Source: a virus. Taken from it: a DNA stretch of 44,800 nt. Within the stretch, counting starts at the first letter, position 1. Every line of letters begins with the position of its first letter. Positions 1 through 44,800 of this stretch are shown one piece after another. The translations under genes and the position numbers were made by a program. The notes beneath the pieces are model-generated. The model saw only the letters and a list, made by a program, of their open reading frames with translations, ran no database searches and was not told where the DNA came from. Where the stretch lies: the IMG/VR virus record IMGVR_UViG_3300035698_009643, positions 1 to 44,800 of that record; one strand, 5' to 3'.

Positions 1-1
1 A

Positions 2-1318
2 AACGATGTCCCCCTTGTAACCGGCCCTACTGTTCCACGCATAGTTTTACCAGACACCCTATACGGTGTTGTTGGCGATAAACTACAGCTTTTTATCCGT
101 GGTATGGTTGAAATGCAAGACCCCTATTCGCTACCCGTTGTGGTTTCGTCTACTATCGGGAACGCTTTCCCAAGATATTTTGAAGTCACGCCTGCCGATG
201 CTACCGATGTGACAATTACGGTAAAAATACTTGATACCGATTATGACACCCTTGTAACCGATACTGTTGATCTTGTAGTTACAGATACAACCGGATCTGT
301 TGCGGCAAATATGAATGCCTTGATGCTTGGCGATTCGTTGACATCTGGCGGCGTGTGGGTTGCTGAACTATACCGCAGATTAACACAAGCAGCGGGAACA
401 CCTGCCGGACTTTCAAAAGCCAATATAACTTTTGTAGGAGATCAAGCAATCCCAGGTTATACAACAGACGGCTTTTGTGGTTTTGATGGCTGGAATTGGG
501 GTGTGTATATCGGTGAGTCTGTTTGGGCTGCTGAAGTGACAACCCTAAATGCTCACGGTCTTGATGATACATGCACAAATTCAAGATGGACTCAGGGCGG
601 TCATAATTGGTATGTGGAATATGTCACCACCAATACAATCAAGTTTCATGGCGGTGCAGGCAACACGCTTCCGGCTGGCGGCGGTACGCTTGTGCATAGC
701 TTTGGTACTTGCAACGATATCACAGACTATGTTTACACATCCTCAACAGCGTCAACAGCCTCACCGTTTTGGAGTGAAGCAGAGGGCGCTTTTGACTTCA
801 ATGAATGGGAAACAAGAAACATGGACACAGGTGCGGGAGAGCATCTTGACGTTGCCTACATTCTGCTTGGCTGGAACGATATAGGTTCAGTCAATAGAAC
901 TGATTGGACTACGTTTATGGTTGATGTCCGAACGTTTTTACTTCAATTAAAAACCGATATCCCGGGCGTTATTGTCCGCATAATTGGTTTACAAGTTCCA
1001 TCCCCGATAGGCGGTACAGGTATTAATTTATCTAATCATTATTTAGGGCAGTACTACCCCCTGTTGAGGTCGGTAAACAATCTTAATCAAGCATATCAAG
1101 ACCTTGCAAACGAGGCAGCTTATGTTTCATGGGTTGAGTTTATTGGACTCGCACCGCAACTTGATTCAGAAAACAACATGAAATCAGCGGCAACGGCTGT
1201 CAACTCTCGCAATGTTACAACTGAGTTGCTTGGCACCGATGGCAGACACCCCGACACAAGCGGACAAGAGCAAATATCAGACGCAGTGTTTCGTGAATTT
1301 ATAGCCTCTTTTCTATAG
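2..1318 (+). CDS. SGNH/GDSL-family esterase domain protein, tail appendage (5' partial)
   Basis: The frame is open to the first bases of the window, so the gene begins upstream; the first in-window ATG is at 104. Numbering from that Met, block I GDSLT is at 76-80 (nucleophile Ser78), GWND at 256-259 supplies block III, and DGRHPD near 379-384 supplies the catalytic Asp/His. These are the SGNH-hydrolase blocks. About 75 residues precede the catalytic domain and look like a beta-rich connector. Residues about 140-220 look like an insertion between blocks. SGNH enzymes on phage tails usually remove acetyl groups from capsule, O-antigen or other glycans. Followed 9 bp later by the endolysin gene, so it is cotranscribed with lysis and tail genes. 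The esterase fold is clear; the substrate is unknown. Confidence 0.85.
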   Translation, partial: NDVPLVTGPTVPRIVLPDTLYGVVGDKLQLFIRGMVEMQDPYSLPVVVSSTIGNAFPRYFEVTPADATDVTITVKILDTDYDTLVTDTVDLVVTDTTGSVAANMNALMLGDSLTSGGVWVAELYRRLTQAAGTPAGLSKANITFVGDQAIPGYTTDGFCGFDGWNWGVYIGESVWAAEVTTLNAHGLDDTCTNSRWTQGGHNWYVEYVTTNTIKFHGGAGNTLPAGGGTLVHSFGTCNDITDYVYTSSTASTASPFWSEAEGAFDFNEWETRNMDTGAGEHLDVAYILLGWNDIGSVNRTDWTTFMVDVRTFLLQLKTDIPGVIVRIIGLQVPSPIGGTGINLSNHYLGQYYPLLRSVNNLNQAYQDLANEAAYVSWVEFIGLAPQLDSENNMKSAATAVNSRNVTTELLGTDGRHPDTSGQEQISDAVFREFIASFL

Positions 1319-14545: not shown

Positions 14546-15814
14546 ATGAAAGAACGCATTGCAATCCTAACCAGCTTCAGGGAATTTAACCCCGGTTATT
14601 CTTTGACCGGAATAGTCCGCGATCAAATCAGGATGTTACAAGAGGCGGGGCATGAGGTTTCCTTGTTTGTGTGCGCTGATTATGATGACACGAAATATCC
14701 GGGGCCTGATGACTGCGAGATTTTAAAGGTCATGCCGAAGTGTAATTTAGTAGACTATCAAAGCAAAGAAGATATAAGCGAAGAGCATACAATTGTTGCT
14801 ACCGACACCGCTGCGGCACTGATAAATTCACTTGAAGGCTTTGACATTGTATTCACGCATGATTTGATATTTCAAGGTTGGTTTTTACCGTATGCATTCG
14901 GTATTCAATTGGCATCAGTAGCTTTACCCTGCGTGCGCGGGTGGTTGCATTGGATTCACAGCATACCCAGCGGAAGCCGTGATTGGTGGGGGATAAAGGA
15001 GTATGGCAATAATCATAAGCTGATTTTCCCAAACAAAACAGACTTGATCCGCGTTGCCGAACAGTACCGTGGAACGCTTGACGATGTGCGCTGCATACCG
15101 CATATCAAAGACCCGCGTTCATGGTTTGGTTTTTGTGAGCAAACGCTTGATATTATTAAAAAGGTTCCGGCGCTTTTGACCGCTGATTTCGTACAGGTAT
15201 TACCGGCATCAGTTGACCGGCTATCGGCAAAGCGGGTGCTTGAGGTTATGAAGATATTTGCAAACCTGAAATATTGCGGGTGTTCGGTTTGTCTGCTAAT
15301 TGCGAACCAGTGGGCAACCACAAACGTTCATAAAGAGTGCATCAGCAATTATGAATTTTATGCTCATAACTGCAATCTTGATATTAACAAGGACTTTGCA
15401 TTTACGTCCAGGCTTGGTGATTATGAAATTGGGCTGCCGCAGCAGGCAATTCGTGACTTACTTTTACTAAGCAACCTTTTTATATTCCCAACTCGTGAAG
15501 AAAGTTTCGGCCTTGTGGTTGCTGAATCCGGTTTAAGCGGTGCGCTGTTGGTGCTGAATAGGTCATTGCAAATGCAAATGGAAATTAGCGGCATGACCGG
15601 CCTTTACTTCGATTTCGGAAGTTACACGAATACTTTCAATGTTGTTGATGAGGAAGCATATTATCTTGACATTGCGAAAATCATTATTGGCAAAGCAGAG
15701 CAAGACAATGCCATTAAAAGCAAGACATTTTTCAGGCAGCACAATAACTGGACTGCGCTTTATAAAAACAGCTATCTGCCTATCTTTGGAGAATCCCTGA
15801 CATGGACACACTGA
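14546..15814 (+). CDS. GT-B glycosyltransferase (GT4-like)
   Basis: 422 residues, starting after AAAGGGG. The C-terminal half has the retaining GT-B signature FPTREESFGLVVAESG with E319-x7-E327, which positions the nucleotide-sugar donor in GT4 enzymes. The N-terminal half opens with ERIAILTSFREFNPGYSLTG, a GT-B-type start with a Gly-rich loop. It transfers a sugar from an activated donor to an unknown acceptor. First gene of nine overlapping or closely spaced genes for glycan or protein modification; overlaps the next by 13 bases. Confidence 0.82.
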   Translation: MKERIAILTSFREFNPGYSLTGIVRDQIRMLQEAGHEVSLFVCADYDDTKYPGPDDCEILKVMPKCNLVDYQSKEDISEEHTIVATDTAAALINSLEGFDIVFTHDLIFQGWFLPYAFGIQLASVALPCVRGWLHWIHSIPSGSRDWWGIKEYGNNHKLIFPNKTDLIRVAEQYRGTLDDVRCIPHIKDPRSWFGFCEQTLDIIKKVPALLTADFVQVLPASVDRLSAKRVLEVMKIFANLKYCGCSVCLLIANQWATTNVHKECISNYEFYAHNCNLDINKDFAFTSRLGDYEIGLPQQAIRDLLLLSNLFIFPTREESFGLVVAESGLSGALLVLNRSLQMQMEISGMTGLYFDFGSYTNTFNVVDEEAYYLDIAKIIIGKAEQDNAIKSKTFFRQHNNWTALYKNSYLPIFGESLTWTH

Positions 15815-16485
15815 AAATTGCTGCGGTCATTCCATCCGTTCATCCTGTTTTATTGCATGCGCTTTTAGAGTGTCTTGAAAAGGGAACTCGCAAGCCTGAT
15901 ATGCTGGTAATAATTGACAACAGTAAAGGCGGGATTAAAAATGTGGCCTTACGTTATTCAGGCCCGTTTCATATTGCGCGGACACGGACAAGGCTTACCG
16001 TTAATGAGTCATGGAATGTGGGCAAACAAATGACATCCGGTTTTGATGTTATATCGTTTTTAAATGATGATATTTTAGTAGGTGATAAGTTTTTTGAGAA
16101 GATAGAAACAGCGTTCAATAAGCTTGGCAAGAAGTGCGGCGTTGTCTGCCCTGCAACAACAAACGATTCAACAATATGGTCAATGCAACCGGATCACAGG
16201 GGCGGGGCGGGTGCTTATAGTGCAATGAGAACGCGCGAAGGGTGGGCGTTTAGTATCAGCAAAGAAGCATTGGCCGTATGCCCTTTAATCCCTGCCAATA
16301 TTCTAAAAACTTTTTGCGGTGATGATTGGCTTTGGTATTACACAAAAAAGGCAGGCTTTACATGGTATCAAGACTTGTCAAACCTGATTTATCATGCCGT
16401 TGGTAAAACTGTTAAAACTGAACAGGTTCGGGCAACACTAAAGCATGAGCGCCGGGAATTAAATCGGTTAATAGGTGAAGCATGA
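15802..16485 (+). CDS. GT-A glycosyltransferase (GT2-like)
   Basis: 227 residues. The start KIAAVIPSVHPVLLHALLECLE...MLVIIDNS has the GT2 nucleotide-binding pattern, and SFLNDDI (NDD at 88-90) takes the place of the metal-binding DxD. A second acidic site, FCGDDWLWYYTKKAG, would hold the catalytic base. The protein is shorter than many GT2 enzymes but spans the catalytic domain. It overlaps both neighbours, so it is translated with them. Donor and acceptor unknown. Confidence 0.75.
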   Translation: MDTLKIAAVIPSVHPVLLHALLECLEKGTRKPDMLVIIDNSKGGIKNVALRYSGPFHIARTRTRLTVNESWNVGKQMTSGFDVISFLNDDILVGDKFFEKIETAFNKLGKKCGVVCPATTNDSTIWSMQPDHRGGAGAYSAMRTREGWAFSISKEALAVCPLIPANILKTFCGDDWLWYYTKKAGFTWYQDLSNLIYHAVGKTVKTEQVRATLKHERRELNRLIGEA

Positions 16486-17561
16486 GAATAGTTTTTCTAT
16501 ATGCCGCAGACGGTCAAGCCTCTTTGGGTTCTAATCCTGAATGGAACAAGAAAGTACCACCTTCAAATCCGCTTGCCTGCGGTTTTCCTGATGAAGGTTA
16601 CTGTTCATATTTATGTGAACTTGTCAGGCAGCCGGGTCCGGTTTCTGAAGTTCTTATTGTGGTTGAATCAACTCGCGGGTGCGGCATGGCTGAAATTGAA
16701 GCCGGTGTCAATATCGTTGTCCTTCCCACTATTGATTACTTGACACCAATGCTACTGTCAGATGATGTAATATTTTGCCGTCACGGTTTCCGCACATGGT
16801 TTCCTTTTCTTGAAAGCCAATATAAGTCCGGGCGATGGATGCTGATGTACGGGGCAAACGGGGGCCGGGAGCGTTGGCGTGTTTGGCAGGTCATTTTTAA
16901 TGATTTAATTCCAGAAACTTATATGGATTCATGGGGAAGATTAAACCTTGAATTCAATAAACCTGTCAACACAAAAGTCTTTTATCATTCAGATGTGCCT
17001 AAAAAGTATGATTATATGATCGGCGCTTCACATATACACGACAAAAAGGGTCAGTATCGGGGCGTATTAGCCCTTTCACAGCATGCAGAGCAGAAAAGGC
17101 TATACCCGCCTACTATTTTGCCGGGGCGTGCCTTCAGGGGCGAACATAGCAACAACATTCAAGACATAATCAACCGTGGTGAGCTTAAAATTGAAACGCC
17201 GGGTATGCTGACCCGGCATGAACTTGCAAACCGGATGCGGGAAACCAAAACTTTTCTGCATTTTGGCTCCGGCCAGGGCGACAGATCGGTAATTGAGGCG
17301 GGTGCCTGCGGGTGCCAGATTGTAATTGCACAACCTAAATATCATAATCCTAAGATTGTCCGGGCTTCGCATGTTGTTGACCCTGATAATTTCAGTATTG
17401 AACAGATAAGCAAAAACACTATATTTGAATTTTCACACTTGTATGCTCATTGGTGGAAAAAGAATTTCGGCGCTGATGTTGTGGCACAATCACACCGGGC
17501 GCTCTATGAATTTATTGACCAAAATAAACCGGCTGACATAAAGGATTTAATCAATGGGTAG
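16482..17561 (+). CDS. Glycosyltransferase, GT-B type
   Basis: 359 residues. The C-terminal segment GSGQGDRSVIEAGACGCQIVIAQPKYHNP matches the donor-binding loop of GT4-like enzymes (small-residue loop followed by E-A-G/A-C-G). The N-terminal part (RIVFLYAADGQASLGSNPEWNKK...CRHGFRTW) fits an acceptor domain. A middle segment (DYMIGASHIHDKKGQYRGVLAL) starts the second Rossmann domain. Overlaps both neighbours by 4-8 bases. Glycosyl transfer is likely, specificity unknown. Confidence 0.68.
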   Translation: MRIVFLYAADGQASLGSNPEWNKKVPPSNPLACGFPDEGYCSYLCELVRQPGPVSEVLIVVESTRGCGMAEIEAGVNIVVLPTIDYLTPMLLSDDVIFCRHGFRTWFPFLESQYKSGRWMLMYGANGGRERWRVWQVIFNDLIPETYMDSWGRLNLEFNKPVNTKVFYHSDVPKKYDYMIGASHIHDKKGQYRGVLALSQHAEQKRLYPPTILPGRAFRGEHSNNIQDIINRGELKIETPGMLTRHELANRMRETKTFLHFGSGQGDRSVIEAGACGCQIVIAQPKYHNPKIVRASHVVDPDNFSIEQISKNTIFEFSHLYAHWWKKNFGADVVAQSHRALYEFIDQNKPADIKDLING

Positions 17562-18069
17562 ATTTACAAAAGGGCGGCACACATACGGCGGGATAAAAGT
17601 ACCGTTAAGGGGCCGGGTTGAGGCCGGTGCGTTTTGCTCTATTGCTGACAATGTGATTGCAGTAATGGAAGGCCACAGGCATGATTGGATTTCAACTTTT
17701 CCTTTTACTGGCAGGCATTTCAATAACGTTTGGGGCGACGTTCCTGCATACCCGCGAGTGACAAATGGTGATATTCTAATAGGATCTGATGTTTGGATAG
17801 GGCAGAACGTTGTTCTGCTTTCTGGCATTACTATTTGCCCCGGCGCTGTAATTGGTGCGGGTGCGGTTGTAACAAAAGATGTCGGCCCGTATGAGGTTGT
17901 GGGCGGTGTGCCTGCAAAACTTATCAAGCGCCGATTTTCAAAGCAAAACATTACCGAGCTTTTAAAGATTGCGTGGTGGCATTGGCCTGATGCAAAGATT
18001 AAAACCGCATTGCATTTTTTGATGCAAAATGATATTGACAAATTTATAAACCAATACAGAGAGGGTTGA
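17554..18069 (+). CDS. Hexapeptide-repeat acyltransferase (CatB/XAT-like)
   Basis: 171 residues with a left-handed beta-helix: IGSDVWIGQNVVLLSGITICPGAVIGAGAVVTKDVGPYEVVGGVPAKLIKRR is the standard ending of xenobiotic and sugar acetyltransferases. GHRHDW at 40-45 with STFPF carries the catalytic His of the CatB group. Such enzymes transfer acetyl or similar groups from acyl-CoA to sugar hydroxyls or amines as trimers. Among glycosyltransferases it most likely acylates a sugar of the phage-made glycan. Confidence 0.88.
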   Translation: MGRFTKGRHTYGGIKVPLRGRVEAGAFCSIADNVIAVMEGHRHDWISTFPFTGRHFNNVWGDVPAYPRVTNGDILIGSDVWIGQNVVLLSGITICPGAVIGAGAVVTKDVGPYEVVGGVPAKLIKRRFSKQNITELLKIAWWHWPDAKIKTALHFLMQNDIDKFINQYREG

Positions 18070-18071
18070 TC

Positions 18072-18587
18072 ATGGCGTTTATGGAATACCGTGAAGTGTT
18101 AAGAGAAATAATGAAAATTGCACAGCCTGAAATATATGTCGAGATTGGCATATTGCGGGCAGGTACTTTCAACATGGTTGCCCCGTTTGCCAAGCGTGCT
18201 GTTGCTGTTGACCGTAACGGTTGCGAGTACGTTGTCAAAAGCCCAAACGTGGAAATATTCCTCGGCTATTCTGATGAATTTTGGGCGCAATGGAAAGACC
18301 CGATTGACATTTGCTTTATTGATGCAGATCACAGCAAAGAAGCGGTGCTGAAAGATTTTCACAATGCTGCAAAGTTTATCAAAGAAGGCACCGGCATGAT
18401 CTTTATGCACGACACATACCCTGCAAGCCGTGAGTGGACAGCGCCGGACAAATGTTCGGATGCTTATGCGGCCGCATGGGAGATAAGAACACAATTTAAA
18501 GAGTTTGAATTTGCAACATTTCCATGGGGCGGTGCTGGTTTATCAGTTGCCCGGCTTGCTCCTAAACATTTACACTGGGAGAGATAA
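18072..18587 (+). CDS. Class I SAM-dependent methyltransferase (Methyltransf_24-like)
   Basis: 171 residues from ATG 18072, placed 7 bases after GAGGG. The motif YVEIGILRAGTFNMV is a SAM-binding motif I, RAVAVDRNG is motif II, and DICFIDADHSKEAVLKDF is the acidic motif of the Methyltransf_24/cephalosporin-hydroxylase-like group, often found in glycan clusters. MIFMHDTYPASREW follows. It probably methylates a sugar or glycan intermediate; no DNA methylase motif (NPPY) is present. Confidence 0.75.
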   Translation: MAFMEYREVLREIMKIAQPEIYVEIGILRAGTFNMVAPFAKRAVAVDRNGCEYVVKSPNVEIFLGYSDEFWAQWKDPIDICFIDADHSKEAVLKDFHNAAKFIKEGTGMIFMHDTYPASREWTAPDKCSDAYAAAWEIRTQFKEFEFATFPWGGAGLSVARLAPKHLHWER

Positions 18588-18589
18588 CC

Positions 18590-19138
18590 ATGAAAAACAT
18601 AAACACACATTTTAATAAAGCATACTTTGAGAGCCGGAAACATATTGCATGGCGCAGTGATGTTGTGGCACAATCAATTTTAGCTTTTTGCCCTGACGTT
18701 GATAGCGTTGTTGATGTTGGCTGTTCTATTGGTGACATTGTAGCGGGGCTGTTTAATGAAGGGATTAAAACGGTTCAAGGCATTGACGGGGCATATGAAG
18801 CAAAGCAACAGTATATTGGCCCGCCCGATACCTATATTCATCAAGACATGCGGAAAAGTTTGACCGGATTACATCTTGATTTATGTTGTTGCTTTGAAGT
18901 GTTCCAATATATCGAACAACAATATCAACAGACATTTCTTAACAATATACGAAAGCTATCAAAGAAAATACTTATCAGCGCCCCTGAAGAACTTCGTGAC
19001 GGTGTGCGGATTCACATGATTTCAAACAAATACCACGAAAAAGACATTACATCTTTTCGCGTATCACTTGAACACCTAAAGACAAAGCCTGCCATCAAGG
19101 GCATATATCACAACAGCATGTATTTTGAAAAGGCATAA
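18590..19138 (+). CDS. Class I SAM-dependent methyltransferase
   Basis: 182 residues, 2 bp after the preceding methyltransferase. VVDVGCSIGDIVAGL is motif I (usually DVGCGxG; here Ser replaces the second Gly), VQGIDGAYEAKQQY motif II, LDLCCCFEVFQYIEQQYQQTFLNNI the post-III segment. It is short at the C-terminus compared with typical Methyltransf_11/23 proteins but the core is complete. A role in glycan or glycolipid modification is inferred from context. Confidence 0.7.
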   Translation: MKNINTHFNKAYFESRKHIAWRSDVVAQSILAFCPDVDSVVDVGCSIGDIVAGLFNEGIKTVQGIDGAYEAKQQYIGPPDTYIHQDMRKSLTGLHLDLCCCFEVFQYIEQQYQQTFLNNIRKLSKKILISAPEELRDGVRIHMISNKYHEKDITSFRVSLEHLKTKPAIKGIYHNSMYFEKA

Positions 19139-19141
19139 GCC

Positions 19142-19879
19142 ATGATTGACATTTGCACGACCGCAACGATAAGGCCGGACATTCTCAACCGGACACTTGA
19201 GAGCTTTAAGAGGAACTTGCTGCACGATTACCCTGCCAGAATGATAGTCAACATCGATCCTGTTGGCGAACACAAGAACGCTCAAGAGGTTGTTGATGTT
19301 TGCCGCAGGTATTTCAATGCTCCCGTAATCCGGTTTGCCGATAAACCCTCTTTCCCGAAAGCATTTTTGTGGTGCTGGCAACATGTTGAAGCACCGTATG
19401 TTTTACAGCTTGAAGATGATTGGGAATTGCTTGAACCTGTTTCACTTGCCGATATGATTGCAGAACTTGAGCTCGGGAAAAATCTTGCAATGCTCAGGCT
19501 TTCGGCTTTCCGTTCTGGTATGCATAACGCAAAGCACTGGAATAAATTTCTTGATTGGAACGGGAGTTTTTTTGAAGTGGCAGAACAGGACCGGCGCCGC
19601 ATTGGTTTCTGCGGGCATCCGGCATTGATAAAACGGGAATGGATTCAGGAAGTATTACCGTTAATGAACACAATCAAAAACCCTGAAAAGCAATTACAAT
19701 TGCCCGAGCATAATTCAAACGATCTTCTTATAAGTGTTCTCGGATGGCGCTATGGTGTTTATCAGCAACAGGAAAAACCCGCACAGATTAAAGATATTGG
19801 ACGAGATTGGATTGCTGAAAGTGGGTGGAAGAAAAGGGGCAATAAAGCCTATTTTGTAGAATGGGAACGGGCTGAATAA
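19142..19879 (+). CDS. GT-A-type glycosyltransferase
   Basis: 245 residues. ICTTATIRPDILNRTLESFKRNLL at the N-terminus is the start of a GT-A nucleotide-binding fold, APYVLQLEDDWELLEP contains the metal-binding EDD (91-93), and IGFCGHPALIKREW plus the LPEHNSNDLLIS segment cover acceptor and catalytic sites. The next gene starts on the last base of its stop. Glycosyl transfer is likely; donor unknown. Confidence 0.75.
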   Translation: MIDICTTATIRPDILNRTLESFKRNLLHDYPARMIVNIDPVGEHKNAQEVVDVCRRYFNAPVIRFADKPSFPKAFLWCWQHVEAPYVLQLEDDWELLEPVSLADMIAELELGKNLAMLRLSAFRSGMHNAKHWNKFLDWNGSFFEVAEQDRRRIGFCGHPALIKREWIQEVLPLMNTIKNPEKQLQLPEHNSNDLLISVLGWRYGVYQQQEKPAQIKDIGRDWIAESGWKKRGNKAYFVEWERAE

Positions 19880-20676
19880 TGGGAAAAATACCGTGTAGAA
19901 ATGTATTTGAACTTGATGTTACATGGCGTTGTAATTTGTCGTGTGCAAACTGTACGCGCCGTTGTGATATTCTTAGTTCAGATAAAAGTGAAGATATGGG
20001 CCCTTCATTTTTTGAAGACCAATTGAAAATTGATCATGACTGGCATCGGATTTTTATCATGGGCGGCGAACCTACCCTGCACCCGCGCTTGATGGAATTT
20101 ATTGATATATTCAAGCGATACCGAAAAGACAAAAACCCAAAGTGCGAACTGACTATTGTTTCAAACGCTCACGGCTCAATGGTCAACAAGGTGCTTGATT
20201 CAATCCCTGCTGATATATTTATTCGGCGGGCTGATAAGTTTGATTCTAAATGTATTGAAGGCACGCAACCCAAAGACTTTTGGACAAACAACATTGCGCC
20301 GGCTGACTTCAAGTGTTTTGATGGTGAGCAATTTACTTTTTGCGGTCAACAGAAACGGTGCGGGCTTCAGCTCACAATAAACGGCTGGTATCATTGTTCA
20401 ATGATCGGCGGGATTGATAGGGTATTCGGTTTGGGCGGTGACACCCTTGCCGGTACGCTTGCAAATCCGCGATGGCATGATTTCTGCCGGTTGTGCGGGC
20501 GTATGCGGATGTCATATATTCAGCAGCATGGCAATTCCCCTGACTTCCAATTACCTGAAGATAAATTAAAACAGCTTAAATCGTCACTTAAAAAATGGCC
20601 TCTAAAATCAGACCAAAGTTTTGTTTCAAAAACCTATAGAGAAAGGCTTAAAAAATGTCAGAACAAAGCATTGTAA
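19879..20676 (+). CDS. Radical SAM enzyme
   Basis: 265 residues. CNLSCANC (C18, C22, C25) is the CxxxCxxC motif that binds the catalytic [4Fe-4S] cluster, and MGGEPTLHPR (61-70) is the SAM-binding GGEP segment. Later cysteines (CGQQKRCGLQLTINGWYHC and CRLCGR) are arranged like the auxiliary-cluster region of SPASM/twitch proteins, with fewer ligands. Such enzymes do radical chemistry on peptides, sugars or cofactors. Here it lies between two GT-A enzymes, so modification of a sugar or of the acceptor peptide is plausible. Its reaction cannot be read from the sequence. Confidence 0.85.
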   Translation: MGKIPCRNVFELDVTWRCNLSCANCTRRCDILSSDKSEDMGPSFFEDQLKIDHDWHRIFIMGGEPTLHPRLMEFIDIFKRYRKDKNPKCELTIVSNAHGSMVNKVLDSIPADIFIRRADKFDSKCIEGTQPKDFWTNNIAPADFKCFDGEQFTFCGQQKRCGLQLTINGWYHCSMIGGIDRVFGLGGDTLAGTLANPRWHDFCRLCGRMRMSYIQQHGNSPDFQLPEDKLKQLKSSLKKWPLKSDQSFVSKTYRERLKKCQNKAL

Positions 20677-21632
20677 AAGGCAAGCTGTCAATAATTATCC
20701 CAACAGCGAACGAATGGCCTGTAATAGCTTTCACGGCGCGTGCTGTAATGGAAGAACTTCGCGGCCGCGTTGATTATGAATTGATCATCGTTGATAATTG
20801 GTGTCCCGAGCTTGAAGCACAGGGCAGGGAACGCGACCGGACATTTGAATATTTTGAGTCAATGATGCGGGGATGGCCGGAACTGAAAATCCTTAATTAT
20901 AACGGTAAATTATCACACTGGAACGCTAAGAAGTTAGGCGTGGCAGAAAGCACCGGCGAATTCATACAGTTTCTTGATGCGCATGTAATACCGTCCCGCG
21001 ATGCAATTTTCAATCAATACAACTTTTACCGGGAAAACCATCAGGAATTAAACGGCGTTTTGCACATGCCTGTAACGTATCATGTGATGGAATATCACAA
21101 GCTGATGTATAAATTGGTGACGGACATCCCTAAAGGCCATGTGCATTACAGCTTTACAGGCTACAGGGAAGCCGATTTGCCATATACAGTGCCTTGCATG
21201 ACCACAGACGGTATCATGATGACCCGCGAGCTATACGATGCAATGGGCGGCTTTCCTGAGATGCTTGGCATATGGGGCGGGGGCGAAAATTTCGTTAATT
21301 TTACCATTGCAGTTATGGGTAAAAATGTATGGATGTGCGCCGGCAAAGGCATGAACGGCACTTTAAACCACCATGGAGACAAGCGCGGTTATTCATATAA
21401 CTATGATGACCTTTGTCGGAATAGATGCGTAGCGGCTTTCATGTACGGCGGTAAGTCATTTGCAAGAACCACGATGAATAATTACAAGGGCTCACCATCG
21501 CAAATTTTACGAATATACAATCAGGTTATAAACGATAAGGCATGTATTGCACAGCGGGCAATTATTGAAGCGCAACAGGTAATGAGTATTCAGGAATGGT
21601 CGGAAAAATGGATTGAGAAAGCAGCCAAGTGA
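20655..21632 (+). CDS. GT2/GT27-like glycosyltransferase with DxH and WGG-EN motifs
   Basis: 325 residues, overlapping the radical SAM gene by 22 bases. KLSIIIPTANEW and YELIIVDN are the GT-A start. FLDAHVIPS carries DAH at 108-110 in place of DxD. This is the metal-binding variant found in polypeptide GalNAc-transferases, and the preceding LGVAESTGEFIQ matches their G-A-x-x-A-x-G-x-V pattern. MGGFPEMLGIWGGGENF (about 197-213) resembles their GG-D-x-x-x-x-WGGEN segment with one extra Gly. No ricin-type lectin domain follows. I infer that it glycosylates Ser/Thr, but GT2 enzymes of other specificity can carry similar motifs. Confidence 0.78.
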   Translation: MSEQSIVKGKLSIIIPTANEWPVIAFTARAVMEELRGRVDYELIIVDNWCPELEAQGRERDRTFEYFESMMRGWPELKILNYNGKLSHWNAKKLGVAESTGEFIQFLDAHVIPSRDAIFNQYNFYRENHQELNGVLHMPVTYHVMEYHKLMYKLVTDIPKGHVHYSFTGYREADLPYTVPCMTTDGIMMTRELYDAMGGFPEMLGIWGGGENFVNFTIAVMGKNVWMCAGKGMNGTLNHHGDKRGYSYNYDDLCRNRCVAAFMYGGKSFARTTMNNYKGSPSQILRIYNQVINDKACIAQRAIIEAQQVMSIQEWSEKWIEKAAK

Positions 21633-22002: not shown

Positions 22003-22848
22003 CTAAATACCTAAATAATCACGTTGTAGTTCTACTGCAAGCATCCCAGTTGTTCCACTCCCGATGAACGGGTCAAACACAACACCGCCTTTAGGACATC
22101 CCGCTAAAATCATCGGTTCAATAAGTTTCTTTGGGAATGTTGCGAAATGCGCTTCTTTGCATGGTGCTGTGTTTACGGTCCAGACTGAGCGTTTATTTCT
22201 TCTGTCTTTAATTGAAACAAAATTTTCCTGCCCCGTGCCTTCTACTCCCTCTCTTTTCCCCCTATAGTGCAACCTGCCATATCCTGCACGCGGATCCTCT
22301 TTATGTATAGCATCTTCCATAATCGCATCAGCATCATAATAATACTTTTTGCTTTTGCTCATTAGAAACACATATTCATGTGCCTTTGTGCAACGGTCTT
22401 TCACGCTTTCGGGCATCGGGTTTGGTTTGTGCCATATTAAATCTTGTCTTAAATACCAACCGTCTGAGCGCATGGCAAAGGCAACCATCCAAGGGATTCC
22501 AATTAGGTCTTTAGGTTTTAAACCTGTGTTACCCTGTTTATATTTATTGAATCCTTCTTTTTCTAATTGACCAAATTGGCTACCTGCACCGCCCGAACCA
22601 GAATAACTATCGCCCAAATTCAGCCACAATGTTCCATTATCTTTCAACACCCTGCGAACTTCACGAAATACGGCAACAAGTTTTTGCACATATTCCTCCG
22701 GTGTTTCTTCTAACCCTATTTGACCGTCAACACCATAGTCACGCAATCTGTAGTATGGTGGAGAAGTAATACAGCAATTAATAAAACCATCAGGAAGCGC
22801 TTTTAATACTTCCAAACAGTCACCGTTTATTGTTCGGTTTAATTTCAT
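22003..22848 (-). CDS. DNA methyltransferase with TSPPYY motif
   Basis: 281 residues from ATG 22848, preceded by GGGGGAAGCG. TSPPYY (28-33) is the catalytic motif IV of beta-class amino-methyltransferases, and VVFDPFIGSGTTG near the C-terminus is motif I. This order (IV before I) marks an N4-cytosine or N6-adenine enzyme. The protein ends at RDYLGI, some 10-20 residues before the usual end of the motif II helix, so it may be slightly truncated. No partner restriction enzyme is nearby. It may protect phage DNA from host restriction. Confidence 0.88.
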   Translation of the reverse strand: MKLNRTINGDCLEVLKALPDGFINCCITSPPYYRLRDYGVDGQIGLEETPEEYVQKLVAVFREVRRVLKDNGTLWLNLGDSYSGSGGAGSQFGQLEKEGFNKYKQGNTGLKPKDLIGIPWMVAFAMRSDGWYLRQDLIWHKPNPMPESVKDRCTKAHEYVFLMSKSKKYYYDADAIMEDAIHKEDPRAGYGRLHYRGKREGVEGTGQENFVSIKDRRNKRSVWTVNTAPCKEAHFATFPKKLIEPMILAGCPKGGVVFDPFIGSGTTGMLAVELQRDYLGI

Positions 22849-23024
22849 CGCTTCCCCCGGCATTCCGCACACCTGATAACACGTTTGCCTTCACGCTTCA
22901 GCCGTGCGCCCCATCGCAGCTTGCAATACCCGTACATCCATCCGGGGTTATTCACAAGCGCCGGGCATTTATCTTTTCCTGTTCGGCAATAGATACCGTC
23001 ATATTTTAGGTCTTGTGGGTTCAC
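22845..23024 (-). CDS. Small zinc-ribbon-like protein
   Basis: A 59-residue frame starting with GTG at 23024, after GGGGGAAGT, and ending in an ATGA overlap with the methyltransferase start. Four or more cysteines (IYCRTGKDKCPAL, MYGYCKLRWG, VIRCAECRGKR) suggest a zinc site. The C-terminus is very basic, consistent with nucleic-acid binding. Tight coupling to both neighbours supports that it is real. No known family. Confidence 0.6.
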   Translation of the reverse strand: MNPQDLKYDGIYCRTGKDKCPALVNNPGWMYGYCKLRWGARLKREGKRVIRCAECRGKR

Positions 23025-28913: not shown

Positions 28914-30644
28914 CTAGTTTTCAATGATTAATATAGCGGTATTAACTCCGGTTCCTGCATTTTTAAATGTACCGGCGGGCAGGTCTTCCCAAAAGTGTTC
29001 GCCTGTTTTAAATTCTGCCTGTTGCCGTGGCCCGTTTGCACATATGGCGACCAACACCCCGCCCGGTTTCAAGTGGTGCAGCGCGTGTTTTATGTGCTTT
29101 ATATCGTCGGCATTTTTAAAAGGCGGATTCATAATAATTTTATCGAACATGCCAAGATCAGCGTTGCAGTTCAAAAAATCGTCACATACCACTTTATCAG
29201 CAATGGGCTTCAATCCTTCTGCCAGGTTATAATTGATTTCAACAGCGGTCACAGATCCGTTCGGGCGTATGTTGTGCATTGCCTGAATCAGCTTGCCAGT
29301 TCCCGCGCTTGGCTCCAGGACAGAATCGCCGGGTTCAATCCGGGCGTATTCAATAACCTTTTCGGCTATGTCCTGCGGTGTTTCAAATAGCTGGTCGGCA
29401 ACAACCACTTTAACCCCTGTTTTAAGCTGTTCTTTTAAATCGTCAAATTTGTTTCTTTCCGGCGGCGTGTATACCGGGCGCGTGTCGGCGCGGTGAATGC
29501 GCTCCGGTTCCGGCTGCTTTTCTGGTTCCGGTTGTGTTGGTTCCGGTACCAGGTGTGTTTTTGAGTCTGTTAAAAAAACAACAAATCGCTCATAGTTTCC
29601 AAGCTTATGAGAGGCGCACATTCTCACGCGATGGTTTTTGTTAATAACGACAGTATACCGGCTATCGGTATAAATATTACTGTATTCAGCTTTTGTCATT
29701 TCTACCTGTTTGCGTAGTTGTGTTTCGTCGTTGGGGTTGTAACCGCGCTTTTCAACCTGCAGCCCTTCCGGGGCGCGGTAATTTAAAAGCGGTAATTGTT
29801 TCGGGCGGGCTTTTGGTTCAAGCCGGGCGCTTTCACCCTGTTCGCCTAACATGGCTTTTTCATATATCAGGCGGTTGTCGTTATGGGCAATACTGCGGGC
29901 ATATCTTTTTTCAATATCAGGAAAACTGCTTTCTTGGATCCAACCGTTCCCCCGGCCCATATAAATATGAACTGTCTTGATCTTTGCTTCCGGGTGGTCT
30001 TTGCAATAATAAGCCCAGCATATGGGGCAATAAGTTGGCTCCTGCATTATCTTGATAACTTTTTTCGGCGGTATATAACATGAAATCATTTTTCTGTTTT
30101 CAGCTTCAATCTTTTTAATGCGGCGAACCCGGACATCGGGCCGTTCAAGGTATTTAGCATGTGACAGGGCACCGGCTGCGCGGCGCGTCCAATATTCTGA
30201 AGTGTCCCAAAGTTTAATGGCGTTCCGCATACCGTTTTCAATTTTTTGCTGATCGCGGCGTGCGTGCTTTTCTGAATGGTGCCCAACTAAAATCGGTTGG
30301 CCCATCGGTATTCCGTCCGCTATTCCCTGGACTGTGGCGTGTGCTTGGTGCGCTTCAGCTTCTCTTTTACTACTGTATGCATCAAACCTATCAGCGCGAT
30401 CTTTAGCGCGATCTGCAAGCGTTGTATCTTCATCCTCAATTTCAGGGCAAAATAGAAGTGCTACATCTTCCCGGGCCGGTGTCCATCTGGGGGCGAAAAA
30501 CAGTTCTTGTTTCGGTGCCCATGAATAACCGGCCTTTTTCAGTTTCAAATAATCTTCTTTATCAAAACGATACGCAGGGTAGATTCTGATTTTGTTGTCT
30601 TCCGGTGAGTATGTTGCGCGATGGTCTTTTGTGTTTTCGGTCAT
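28914..30644 (-). CDS. DUF3560-containing DNA methyltransferase (NPPF)
   Basis: 576 residues. The N-terminus (ATYSPEDNKIRIYPAYRFDKEDYLKLKKAGYSWAPKQELFFAPRWTP) and helical segment to about 190 match DUF3560. A central linker is rich in Pro/Glu (PEPTQPEPEKQPEPERIH). The C-terminal 170 residues hold a gamma-like methyltransferase: LEPSAGTGKLIQAM is motif I, IIMNPPFKN (near 505) motif IV. NPPF is typical of N6-adenine enzymes. The fusion is frequent on mobile elements; it would modify phage DNA, perhaps against restriction. Confidence 0.82.
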   Translation of the reverse strand: MTENTKDHRATYSPEDNKIRIYPAYRFDKEDYLKLKKAGYSWAPKQELFFAPRWTPAREDVALLFCPEIEDEDTTLADRAKDRADRFDAYSSKREAEAHQAHATVQGIADGIPMGQPILVGHHSEKHARRDQQKIENGMRNAIKLWDTSEYWTRRAAGALSHAKYLERPDVRVRRIKKIEAENRKMISCYIPPKKVIKIMQEPTYCPICWAYYCKDHPEAKIKTVHIYMGRGNGWIQESSFPDIEKRYARSIAHNDNRLIYEKAMLGEQGESARLEPKARPKQLPLLNYRAPEGLQVEKRGYNPNDETQLRKQVEMTKAEYSNIYTDSRYTVVINKNHRVRMCASHKLGNYERFVVFLTDSKTHLVPEPTQPEPEKQPEPERIHRADTRPVYTPPERNKFDDLKEQLKTGVKVVVADQLFETPQDIAEKVIEYARIEPGDSVLEPSAGTGKLIQAMHNIRPNGSVTAVEINYNLAEGLKPIADKVVCDDFLNCNADLGMFDKIIMNPPFKNADDIKHIKHALHHLKPGGVLVAICANGPRQQAEFKTGEHFWEDLPAGTFKNAGTGVNTAILIIEN

Positions 30645-34239: not shown

Positions 34240-34863
34240 ATGAGAGTTGAAACTGTTAAGCAGCAAACTGAATATCGGCAGTTAAAAACCCTGAAAAAAT
34301 ACCCCGGTAATCCCCGCATTATAAAAGATCAACAGTTTAAAACTCTATGTATTTCAATTAAAGAAAACCCTGATTACTTTGAGGCAAGGCCGATCATATT
34401 GTCCGACAGAACAGGCGACCTGATAATCATTGCAGGAAACCAGCGGTATGAAGCAGCAAAGGCAAACGGCCTGAAAGAAGCACAGACATTTTTAATGTCC
34501 GGCTTAACAGATGAAAAAGAAAAAGAAATTGTAATACGCGATAATATTTCAAATGGTGATTTTGATTGGGACATACTGGCAAACGAGTGGGCGGAAATGC
34601 CGCTTGAAGATTGGGGTATTGATTTGCCAGATTATGCCGCAGGGCATGAAGCAAATTCAATGGATGAAAATAATATTGATTTAGAACAGGAATTTGATCC
34701 CGTTGGAGTTTCAAAAGGATATCAAAAAATAGTTATAACATTTAAAAATAAGGAAGATGCAGATATGTGGGTCAATATCCATCCTGAAATAATGCCATTT
34801 TTTAGAAAGCAAAACATGGCTTGGACCATAGATTACACTAGCGGGTATAAAGAAAATGAATGA
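34240..34863 (+). CDS. ParB/Srx-fold protein
   Basis: 207 residues. YPGNPRIIKDQQFKTLCISIKENPDYFEARPIILSDRTGDLIIIAGNQRYEAAKANGLKEAQTFLMSGLTDEKEKEIVIRDNISNGDFDWDIL is a ParB-N-type domain: N-P-R, A-G-N-Q-R-Y/W-E-A-A. Standalone phage ParB proteins are not segregation proteins; they are often linked to DNA methylases or base modification. It overlaps the TAGT-like gene by 8 bases, which supports a joint function. Confidence 0.85.
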   Translation: MRVETVKQQTEYRQLKTLKKYPGNPRIIKDQQFKTLCISIKENPDYFEARPIILSDRTGDLIIIAGNQRYEAAKANGLKEAQTFLMSGLTDEKEKEIVIRDNISNGDFDWDILANEWAEMPLEDWGIDLPDYAAGHEANSMDENNIDLEQEFDPVGVSKGYQKIVITFKNKEDADMWVNIHPEIMPFFRKQNMAWTIDYTSGYKENE

Positions 34864-35593
34864 ATACCCTGTTTATATAATTTCCAAAGGCCGCTATAAA
34901 AAAACATTGACCGCCGACTTATTTGGAAATGCAAATATTTTTTATCAAATTGCAGTAGAGCCACAAGAGTATGATTTATATTGTAATAAGCTCGGTAAAG
35001 AAAAAGTTTTAAAACTCCCCTTTGCAAATTTAGGGCTTGGAAGTTATCCAGCAAGAAATTATTGCTGGGAACATGCAAAAACAAGGGGGTATAAATACCA
35101 TTGGTTGTTTGATAATAATATCTTAAATTTTAAACAGTGGATAACGGGTAAAAGACGGAACATTAGCAATATTGGTACAGCGTTAGAGTATGTAGAAACT
35201 TATATATATAAAAACAATATAGATATTGGTGGGTTTGAAGAACCAAATATGTCGGTCAGGGTACCAAAAAGGCCATTTAAAAATCAATGCCATCTTTACT
35301 CTGCAATGCTTATAAAAACAAGTTTGCCATATCGTTGGCGGTTAAAATATAATGAGGATGTAGACCTTTGTTTGCAGGTTTTGCATGGCGGCGGCAGTAC
35401 CGGATCATGTATTTATTATTTAGCAGACAAGGTATCAACAGCATGCAAGCAAAAAGGCGGCAATCAAATAGAACTTTATCAAGGTAATAAGCCATCAAAA
35501 AATCTACTAAAAGCAAAAATGCTTGAAGCTGTTTGGCCTCAGTATACAAAAACAGTTATCAGGTTTGGGCGTCATCATCATTATATTAACTAG
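34856..35593 (+). CDS. TET-associated-type glycosyltransferase (TAGT-like)
   Basis: 245 residues. YPVYIISKGRYKKTLTADLF..., VEPQEYDLYCNKLG, LPFANLGLGSYPARNYCWEHAKTRGYKYHWLFDNNILNFKQ, LPYRWRLKYNEDVDLCLQVLHGG, and the ending RFGRHHHYIN follow the TAGT family pattern as I recall it. TAGT enzymes are predicted (Iyer and colleagues) to glycosylate hydroxylated DNA bases made by TET/JBP oxygenases. The metal site reads FDNNI instead of DDN. No TET/JBP gene or nucleotide hydroxymethylase is seen in the window, so its hydroxylated substrate is unexplained. Confidence 0.75.
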   Translation: MNEYPVYIISKGRYKKTLTADLFGNANIFYQIAVEPQEYDLYCNKLGKEKVLKLPFANLGLGSYPARNYCWEHAKTRGYKYHWLFDNNILNFKQWITGKRRNISNIGTALEYVETYIYKNNIDIGGFEEPNMSVRVPKRPFKNQCHLYSAMLIKTSLPYRWRLKYNEDVDLCLQVLHGGGSTGSCIYYLADKVSTACKQKGGNQIELYQGNKPSKNLLKAKMLEAVWPQYTKTVIRFGRHHHYIN

Positions 35594-35671: not shown

Positions 35672-36079
35672 ATGCCGTCTAATAATCCCAACGTCTTAGC
35701 CAACTTAAAACCATTTGTTAAGGGTGATAAGCGCATTAACCGTAAGGGCAGGCCAAAAGGCTTTGACGAGGTGCGAAAACTTGCTGTCAAATTAGCAGGT
35801 GAAGCGTACAGCGATAAGAACGGGGACGCGCATCAGTTCCCCGGTAAAGAGACGGCAACCGGCAGGGCAGAAGCCATCCTGCTACAGTGGTCACAATCAG
35901 GCGACCCCCGCAAGCAAGCCCTTTTTATGGAGTATGCTTTTGGAAAGCCCACGCAGAAAATAGAGCAAGACCACAAAAGCTCAGACGGGAGCATGTCCCC
36001 AAAATCAAACATCGATATGACCAAACTATCAGCAGCCGCACTAGATGAAATTATCAACGCCACAATTAACGGGGAATGA
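35672..36079 (+). CDS. Terminase small subunit (DUF5681-like)
   Basis: 135 residues. The N-terminus VKGDKRINRKGRPKGFDEVRKLAVKLAGEA matches the DUF5681 pattern (N-R-x-GRPKG) used as a DNA-binding arm; ETATGRAEAILLQWSQSGDPRKQALFMEYAFGKPTQK follows. It is directly upstream of and overlaps the large subunit by 35 bases. It would recognise the packaging site and control TerL. First gene of the structural run. Confidence 0.78.
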   Translation: MPSNNPNVLANLKPFVKGDKRINRKGRPKGFDEVRKLAVKLAGEAYSDKNGDAHQFPGKETATGRAEAILLQWSQSGDPRKQALFMEYAFGKPTQKIEQDHKSSDGSMSPKSNIDMTKLSAAALDEIINATINGE

Positions 36080-37505
36080 CCAGCGGGAAGCCCTTAAAGA
36101 AACCTGCTCGCGCTCACTATCCTCTTTCGTAAAGCGTGCATGGCACGTTGTAGAACCTTCCGCAGAATTAAAATGGGGCTGGGCACTTGATGTTATTTGT
36201 GAGCATCTTGAAGCTGTTTCCCGTGGTGAAATAAAAAGGCTATTAATCAACGTGCCGCCCGGCATGATGAAAAGCCTGCTCGTTTGTGTTTTCTGGCCTG
36301 CTTGGGAATGGGGGCCGAAAGCCAATACCCATTTACGCTATATGGGAACGGCACACAATCAACCCCTATCAGTTCGTGATAACACAAAATGCCGCCGCCT
36401 TATTCAATCTGATTGGTTTCAAAATCTTTGGCCCATAACCTTGACCGGCGATCAAAACGCAAAGACAAAATTTGAGAATGAACAAACCGGGTTTCGTGAA
36501 GCAATGGCTTTCACGTCAATGACAGGGTCCAGGGGTGACAGGGTTTTACTTGATGACCCGCACAGCGTACATGGCGCAAACAGCAAAGCGGTAATGACCA
36601 GCGATATAATTGAATTCCGGGAATCCCTGCCAGGCAGAACCAACAACGATGACAGCGCGATTGTAATTATCATGCAGCGGCTTGCAGTAGGTGACGTTTC
36701 AGACGTTGCCCTGGAGCTTGGCTATGAGCATTTATGTCTGCCAATGCGCTATGAGACAGGGAAATCAAAATGGGTTGTGGGTGAGGGGGATCCACGCAAG
36801 GAAGACGGGGAACTTTTATTCCCTGAGCGTTTCAGCCTTGAAGCTGTTGAGGCTTTAGAGCGCACGCTTGGCTCAATGGCTATAGCCGGACAGCTACAGC
36901 AAAGGCCCGTTGTGCGTGGTGGTAATATTATCAAGGGTGAATGGTTCAGGACTTATTCAGTCTTGCCTAAAATATTACATCGCTCTATCTTTGGTGATAC
37001 GGCATTAAAAGCAAAAGAGGCAAACGATTACAGCGTTTTTGAGGAGTGGGGGCTTGCCGCTGACGCCAATTTATATTTGCTTGATATGATACGCGGTAAA
37101 TGGGAAGCCCCTGATCTTGAAAGCAGGTGCCTTTTTTTCTGGCAGAAATGCAAGGCGCGAAACTTTGACGACTTCGGGGCCCTGCGTAATCTTTGCATTG
37201 AGGACAAGGCATCAGGCACCGGGCTTATTCAAAGCATAAAGAAAAAGGGCGGCATTCCTGTCAAGGCAATTCAAAGAAGCATTGACAAATACACCCGCGT
37301 GTGTGATGGCTTAGGTTATATTGAAGCCGGAAGTGTTTACTTGCCAGCAAATGCGCCTTTTACTTCTGATTTTATTTCTGAAGCGGAGTCTTTCACTTCA
37401 GATGATACACATAAAAACGATGACCAGATTGACCCGATGATGGATGCTATAAAAGACATGCTTGCAGGAACAGGCGGCGTGATAAGTGGCGCTAAGTGCA
37501 TGTAA
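36045..37505 (+). CDS. terL: Terminase large subunit
   Basis: 486 residues. A Walker A variant NVPPGMMKSLL is at about 69-79, Walker B VLLDDP at 167-172, and the RNase H-like nuclease has FGDTALKAKEANDYSVF and IEDKASGTGLIQSIKKKG. The PPG-x-x-KS form is typical of one major TerL clade that includes many environmental siphoviruses. It drives DNA packaging and cuts concatemers. The C-terminus (DQIDPMMDAIKDML) has the final Asp of the nuclease. Start ATG 36045 lies inside the small-subunit gene. Confidence 0.93.
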   Translation: MKLSTPQLTGNDQREALKETCSRSLSSFVKRAWHVVEPSAELKWGWALDVICEHLEAVSRGEIKRLLINVPPGMMKSLLVCVFWPAWEWGPKANTHLRYMGTAHNQPLSVRDNTKCRRLIQSDWFQNLWPITLTGDQNAKTKFENEQTGFREAMAFTSMTGSRGDRVLLDDPHSVHGANSKAVMTSDIIEFRESLPGRTNNDDSAIVIIMQRLAVGDVSDVALELGYEHLCLPMRYETGKSKWVVGEGDPRKEDGELLFPERFSLEAVEALERTLGSMAIAGQLQQRPVVRGGNIIKGEWFRTYSVLPKILHRSIFGDTALKAKEANDYSVFEEWGLAADANLYLLDMIRGKWEAPDLESRCLFFWQKCKARNFDDFGALRNLCIEDKASGTGLIQSIKKKGGIPVKAIQRSIDKYTRVCDGLGYIEAGSVYLPANAPFTSDFISEAESFTSDDTHKNDDQIDPMMDAIKDMLAGTGGVISGAKCM

Positions 37506-44178: not shown

Positions 44179-44493
44179 ATGAAGTATTTAATAGCATTAT
44201 TTATTACACTTATTTTGATTGCGAGTGTTGCAGTAGCCCCGGCACAGGCACAGGGTTTTACCTCACAGCAGATTGATAATTTTGTTCATGCCTACGAAAC
44301 CCGAATTGCTTACACTGCCGGCGGTGATGCTGAGTATATCGGCAAGGCAACGCCCGGCTCAAGTACGGCAGCAACGGTTTGGCAGATTCAAAAAATCACT
44401 TATTCAGACAGCAATGCAGCGACCATCAAATACGCCGGTGGTACTGCAACCTTTTCAGGCGCTTGGGACAGTCGCGCTACATACACATATTAG
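44179..44493 (+). CDS. Small protein with signal peptide, appendage-associated
   Basis: 104 residues from ATG 44179 after AGGAAGG. MKYLIALFITLILIASVAVAPAQAQG is a typical signal peptide with AQA cleavage site. The mature part (ARIAYTAGG-type strand, EYIGKATPGSSTAATVWQIQKITYSDSNAATIKYAGGTATFSGAWDSRATYTY) resembles small proteins near tail fibre genes in many phages, normally without an export signal. It could be exported or anchored. Unknown function. Confidence 0.6.
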   Translation: MKYLIALFITLILIASVAVAPAQAQGFTSQQIDNFVHAYETRIAYTAGGDAEYIGKATPGSSTAATVWQIQKITYSDSNAATIKYAGGTATFSGAWDSRATYTY

Positions 44494-44505
44494 GAGGTCC
44501 GGACA

Positions 44506-44800
44506 ATGAAACGGTACATAAAAATATTTATCCTTGCGGCTCTGTTGCCGTTTCTTTTTGCTGGCACTTATTACGAACCATTTACCGGGCAAACTATGTC
44601 TGACCCGCCCGACATGGCAACGGGTACATCATCCGAAGCATATACCGATTCGGAAATGGTTGATCATAAGGCTGAAGCAGATGCGCATGATGCTAGTAAT
44701 ATTACAAATGCCGCTGATGTTACTTCCAACAATACATTCACCGGTGATGATGAGTTCGAAAGCATACAATCTGACACTATGACTGTCGGCAGACCTGCGG
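44506..44800 (+). CDS. Signal-peptide protein, likely appendage/fibre start (3' partial)
   Basis: ATG 44506 after TAGGAGGTCCGGACA; the frame is open to the window end (98 codons and one base). MKRYIKIFILAALLPFLFAG is a signal peptide, and the polar stretch EPFTGQTMSDPPDMATGTSSEAYTDSEMVDHKAEADAHDASNITNAADVTSNNTFTGDDEFE resembles the N-terminal repeat zones of phage fibres. Its end is outside the window; it may or may not be the same gene as the SGNH protein at the other edge. Confidence 0.6.
   Translation, partial: MKRYIKIFILAALLPFLFAGTYYEPFTGQTMSDPPDMATGTSSEAYTDSEMVDHKAEADAHDASNITNAADVTSNNTFTGDDEFESIQSDTMTVGRPA

Follow-up and report, generated by a model that had tools for sequence, protein, structure and literature searches.

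The 44.8 kb phage record from IMG/VR analysed here (hereafter the window) encodes a ParB/Srx-fold protein and a TAGT-family glycosyltransferase in overlapping genes, followed directly by TerS and TerL, and the question raised by this locus is what the transferase glycosylates and what makes its acceptor. An earlier note on this DNA, working from the premise that TAGT proteins act on oxidised pyrimidines made by TET/JBP enzymes, saw no such enzyme and proposed that the host supplies it, that it lies outside the window or that a different modification is made. The reading favoured here, to which we give a probability of roughly 0.6, is that ParB and TAGT form a mobile module upstream of terminase genes, in which ParB loads or targets, a part of it resembling a TAGT-partner domain (K, described below) holds the TAGT, and a sugar is placed onto phage DNA.

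The proteins of the window were scanned with Pfam, and its gene content comprises terminase, portal, capsid, tail, recombination and regulatory genes (features discussed are listed in Table 1). The ends of the window (1–103 and 44490–44800) do not overlap and the terminal ORFs appear broken, so the genome is possibly slightly incomplete. Joining the ends gave no convincing single ORF, and the genome may thus not be closed. A DNA search of a phage database gave nothing near to the 30–44.8 kb part of the window.

Table 1. Features of the window discussed in the text, with their positions.
Feature	Position	Strand	Basis or remark
Sugar cassette, nine genes	14546-21632	+	Located after tail genes; order: GT4-like, GT2-like, 359-aa protein, hexapeptide acyltransferase, Methyltransf_24, class I methylase, GT2-like, radical SAM, GT2
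N6_N4 DNA methylase ORF	22003-22872	-	PF01555 7e-49, phrog_67; ends at PF01555 profile position 209 of 221
576-aa protein, DUF3560 and DNA-methylase-like C-terminal domain	28914-30644	-	
ParB/Srx-fold protein, 207 aa	34240-34863	+	phrog_620 E 7e-26; fold match; PDB profile match 1e-8
P-motif (Box II) GNQRYEAAK, nucleotide-binding by likeness	34435-34461	+	Homologue alignment
ParB C-terminal segment, probable diverged K	34711-34827	+	Profile comparison with K
TAGT-family GT-A glycosyltransferase, 245 aa	34856-35593	+	PF20691 E 4.4e-28
DxD-equivalent motif D86-N-N88	35111-35119	+	D86 and N88 invariant, 41 homologues aligned
N166-E-D-V-D170 motif	35351-35365	+	N, E, D and D invariant, 41 homologues aligned
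Probable TerS	35672-36079	+	Precedes TerL; resembles ORFs at the equivalent place in relatives
TerL	36045-37505	+	Resembles hundreds of viral loci retrieved with TerL; Terminase_6C among window matches

The overlapping ParB and TAGT genes described in the earlier note are real. The start of the TAGT gene overlaps the stop of the ParB gene by 8 nt on the same strand, and its product scores 99.1 bits against PF20691, for which the curated cut-off is 27.5. The predicted model of the TAGT has a GT-A fold (pLDDT 83) with Z of ~13–15 to many GT-A enzymes, and no solved structure was matched by sequence. The counterpart of D86-N-N88 in other TAGTs is DDN, and the invariant residues of the second motif are also kept in TAGTs of the K type. 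With its GT-A fold and its DxD-like and ED motifs, the protein belongs to the PF20691 family.

For the ParB protein, Pfam ParB_N gave a sub-threshold match only (E 0.0015). Its predicted model aligns over residues 7–107 with the CTP/CDP-bound ParB structures 7bnr/6sdk (Z 12.9, 2.0–2.8 Å), which points to the ParB-CTPase fold. Arg69 of the P-motif is near-invariant in an alignment of 55 homologues. The equivalent arginine is needed for NTP binding, and various orphan ParB-CTPase-fold proteins, phage ones included, bind CTP, ATP or GTP through it (PMC12704722). Only the N domain was recognised in the 207 aa of the window protein, with no HTH or C-terminal dimerisation domain, and no ParA was found among the scanned window proteins; it is an orphan, unlike the ParB of a ParABS partition system. 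Scanning with this ParB alone returned one distant locus and no more.

Relatives of the pair were encoded in 212 stretches, from which 80 loci were kept. Two of these (L026 and L075) begin at the TAGT gene and were left out of the count; in all 78 loci whose sequence extends beyond the start of the TAGT, a ParB homologue is encoded upstream of it, directly adjacent in most, and in most the two genes overlap (by 8 to 37 nt), with terminase genes usually downstream. Identity to the window proteins ranges from 29 to 43% for the ParBs and from 59 to 77% for the TAGTs. An extra gene or gene pieces, mostly GT32-like glycosyltransferases, occur between ParB and TAGT in six loci, and the TAGT is split in two further ones. 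A large ORF is found within 1.6 kb downstream at 71 of 75 ParB-type TAGT loci, compared to 10 of 54 loci without ParB, and at least 39 of the 58 downstream large ORFs tested at ParB-type loci are terminases. A search of genome contigs yielded only two loci, on Melioribacter and Ferrovum MAG contigs.

Just three of the 77 loci retrieved with the window's own TerL have a ParB upstream and none has a TAGT there, and this TerL is only ~25% alike to the TerLs of the TAGT relatives. The GC content is 0.37 for ParB and 0.34 for TAGT, compared to 0.49 for TerS and 0.47 for TerL. The low GC of the pair and the unrelated TerL of its relatives fit a cassette-like transfer of ParB-TAGT. Parsimony puts five changes of ParB linkage on the TAGT tree; at least two of them are forced by well supported branches, and the linkage needs two or more origins.

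A previously undescribed partner domain of TAGT, of ~73 aa and named K here, is seen in the Ferrovum MAG contig (L106), in which an 81-aa protein precedes the TAGT. Searches with tblastn found K as an N-terminal extension of TAGT, or just ahead of it, in Aeromonas and Vibrio phages. Across 80 further loci K is most often encoded by a small gene of its own immediately ahead of TAGT and is sometimes fused to it, while in 10 of these loci it forms the C-terminus of a ParB. In L257/L276 all three parts make up a single ParB-K-TAGT protein of 515 aa. A search with this protein identified further fusions in L277 (91%), L278–L281 and L282 (62%), which indicate that the L257 fusion is no sequencing error.

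It could be supposed that ParB and TAGT are chance neighbours, that is, unrelated accessory genes sharing one late operon, given that both are accessory and that many TAGTs have no ParB alongside. Conservation of the pair in 78 of 78 loci, the gene overlap and the two or more origins of the linkage all speak against this, and the single-protein fusions, which span 62–100% identity, disfavour it so strongly that we consider it very improbable. The many K-TAGT phages with neither ParB nor terminase nearby do, however, count against the module model.

The C-terminus of the window ParB may itself be a diverged K. When the profile of this region from the window clade, L105 included, was compared with K, the match had an E of 5.6e-4 and a score of 22.0, the maximum in 60 column permutations being 15.7; an earlier comparison had given E 0.003 with a reversed control nearly equal at E 0.005. 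Using the model of the ParB C-terminus, K proteins were nine of the 13 best non-ParB matches, though they account for 78 of the 4581 ORFs. The K model matches the L105 ParB at E 0.002, and the K profile gave no direct match to the window ParB. Taken together, these comparisons are suggestive of homology.

The earlier note was correct that no TET/JBP or hydroxymethylase is present in the window, as targeted searches and Pfam revealed no TET/JBP, thymidylate-synthase (TS) superfamily, C5-methylase or PF13640 2OG oxygenase gene there. The same largely holds for its relatives. TET/JBP was found in none of the ~78 ParB-TAGT records (a set with many fragments and some near-duplicates) by a search that detected all three known TETs used as controls (P12024L, L103 and L104). 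Among the 39 K-TAGT records without ParB there was one clear TET (L240, a 4-kb contig), and a weak sub-cut-off match occurred in one 334-kb K-TAGT record; TET/JBP was absent from nearly all K-TAGT records, with sizes of up to 106 kb. A TS-superfamily gene was found in none of 33 ParB-type records and none of 50 records of the K-TAGT set, the gene of Aeh1 being detected as control. A C5-methylase was present in four of the 45 records searched, and no PF13640 oxygenase was present in the records searched. With the exception of L240, TET-linked TAGTs form a separate branch of the TAGT tree.

Lack of TET/JBP is the general rule for ParB-TAGT records. This makes a hydroxylase outside the window unlikely, and the window already contains late and regulatory genes; the search for TET/JBP in the remainder of the genome that had been recommended, made here on relatives, lent the idea no support. 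With neither TET/JBP nor a dCMP-hydroxymethylase-type enzyme found, classical hmC/hmU is an improbable acceptor, which favours the option of a different modification in the form of a different acceptor chemistry. The conventional route, in which the acceptor of the TAGT is a pyrimidine hydroxymethylated or hydroxylated by the host or by a phage enzyme that escaped detection, does have precedents in the TET-TAGT operon of Nonlabens phage P12024L, in L240 with its K-TAGT and TET, and in the TAGT phage Aeh1 with its TS-superfamily gene. Against the search results and the tree it is nevertheless unlikely. The window contains neither the TET/JBP gene that accompanies TAGT in TET/JBP-TAGT systems nor the TS-superfamily dCMP hydroxymethylase of T-even hmC glucosylation. 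The absence of TET/JBP as a rule also means that the TAGT family name is misleading.

The loci L276, L277, L281, L324 and L332 are near-identical in TerS (99–100%), TerL (95–96%) and ParB domain (93–97%), but the enzyme behind ParB differs. In L276 and L277 the ParB domain is followed by K-TAGT, in L332 (and L348) an N6_N4 methylase is fused to ParB (PF01555 E ~1e-25), and in L324 (and L325) ParB is followed by a separate C5 methylase (PF00145 E ~1e-53), while L278–L281 carry ParB-K-TAGT and ParB-methylase in tandem. This swap was observed in a TAGT subclade other than the window's clade; the window has the ParB-enzyme-terminase architecture, and exchange with DNA methylases is seen in relatives of that other subclade only. 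The ParB-X-TerS-TerL slot holds a Mom-like protein (phrog_1384 1.7e-52) in Psychrobacter phage Y8A, an ABC-GNAT protein after ParB, upstream of terminase, in Leptospira LE3 and L135, and a ParB-methylase in BS-TP3. Mom of the Mu type is likewise a phage DNA modification enzyme, of the GNAT fold and acting on adenine.

The occurrence of the same ParB domain ahead of K-TAGT and methylases, and of a ParB ahead of a Mom-like protein in another phage, suggests that exchangeable DNA-modifying enzymes use ParB as a common helper, a partnership with several such enzymes that the earlier note overlooked, and from this exchange the substrate of the TAGT is most likely DNA. It may be argued instead that the TAGT glycosylates a protein (of the virion, the terminase, ParB itself or a host protein) and that ParB only delivers or regulates it. 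Many of its GT-A fold relatives act on glycans or proteins, the best fold matches including protein and teichoic-acid glycosyltransferases, the gene adjoins virion genes, and a sugar cassette of nine genes lies elsewhere in the window. This is rather improbable, however, when DNA methylases, Mom and others interchange behind the same kind of ParB and the T2/T6 member of the family acts on DNA (PMC13216743).

Two further observations concern the enzymes found beside ParB. In L274:3501–5119 and L135:1070–2625 ParB accompanies an ABC-ATPase/GNAT protein of 357–366 aa (phrog_11143) upstream of terminase, which is a candidate DNA-modifying enzyme. The Melioribacter MAG contig (L105:34–2726) encodes a ParB, a DpdA-like transglycosylase (phrog_887, E 6e-30), a second ParB and a TAGT, followed by terminase-like genes.

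The locus can be set beside several known systems. The P12024L operon (gp26–gp28) also encodes a phage TAGT and is presumed to act in DNA hypermodification, but there a TET/JBP lies beside the TAGT and no ParB is seen, whereas the reverse holds for the window, and the two TAGTs are on separate branches. Fusions of ParB to methyltransferases (N6_N4, Methyltransf_23), which occur in phages and prophages, likewise join the ParB-CTPase fold to an enzyme predicted to modify DNA, the enzyme being a methyltransferase there and a glycosyltransferase in the window; the main text of that survey mentions neither glycosyltransferase nor terminase (PMC12704722). The T2/T6 TAGT (beta-glucosyl-HMC-alpha-glucosyltransferase) shares the PF20691 family and GT-A fold with the window protein and, in hmC phages, adds a second glucose to alpha-glucosyl-hmC (PMC13216743; see also PMC13390438). 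Its relatives in Aeh1, POP12, PTm1 and Kuja have an N-terminal K domain in place of ParB. A solitary TAGT occurs in 288 of the 753 phage genomes having such transferases (PMC13216743). To take TET/JBP products as the substrates of TAGTs is therefore too narrow, given the T2/T6 enzyme and the solitary TAGTs, and the TET framing of this locus is doubtful.

The T2/T6 activity raises the prospect that the window TAGT attaches its sugar to a first one, already put on the DNA by a different phage glycosyltransferase. GT32-like genes do occur between ParB and TAGT in L010, L017, L018, L021 and L034, GT4-like genes are found in 22 loci, and several glycosyltransferases are encoded in the window's sugar cassette. 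We regard this as quite improbable, since not every TAGT has extra glycosyltransferases close by, none of the scanned window proteins was recognised as belonging to a T4-type alpha- or beta-glycosyltransferase family, and a first acceptor would still be required. Nothing links the nine-gene cassette to the TAGT; its genes might make or extend a sugar, or decorate the virion.

Returning to a ParB-TAGT module acting on phage DNA, the ParB-fold protein would be a nucleotide-dependent partner for DNA loading or targeting, with its K-like C-terminus as an adaptor holding the TAGT, which would move the sugar from a nucleotide-sugar onto the DNA. What the sequences themselves show is the pair and its conservation, the various arrangements of K, the single ParB-K-TAGT protein and the replacement by methylases in relatives. 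DNA as substrate is suggested by the interchange with DNA methylases and Mom, and the gene position suggests that glycosylation takes place late, ahead of packaging. The sugar would most likely block host nucleases. We put forward only tentatively the wider proposal that ParB/K-linked TAGTs glycosylate a base without prior oxidation or hydroxymethylation by a known route, which would be a nucleoside chemistry new to DNA, and that an NTP-switch ParB takes enzymes as cartridges.

The TAGT family, ParB-methylase fusions and solitary TAGTs are already known. No description of the joining of ParB, K and TAGT, of the slot next to the terminase genes or of the swapping of enzymes was found in the literature surveyed, with an earlier mention of ParB beside TAGT being possible. 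Should the module reading be true, one ParB-fold helper would serve as a phage platform for methylases, Mom, DpdA-like enzymes and glycosyltransferases. Through the ParB-K architecture, solitary TAGTs acquire a partner, a place in the genome and a class of substrate that can be put to the test, and the single-protein ParB-K-TAGT (~500 aa) allows the sugar donor, the nucleotide and the DNA acceptor to be assayed together. The names used in databases (TET-associated; beta-glucosyl-HMC-alpha-glucosyltransferase) imply an hmC substrate, but most such phages seem unable to make hmC.

Variation was also noted among the K-TAGT loci. Neighbours recurring at those without ParB are replication-, nuclease- and packaging-like, with no common modifying partner as judged by eye and in part by profiles. 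The K-TAGT proteins of L296, L284, L285 and L291 are very long (546–1210 aa), with extra parts assigned to no family. Inspection by eye placed a class I methylase-like and a GT4-like protein between K and TAGT (L206:7148–8008 and L266:6907–7986), and Vibrio phage Kuja (L188:2239–4927) has two K-TAGT genes in tandem.
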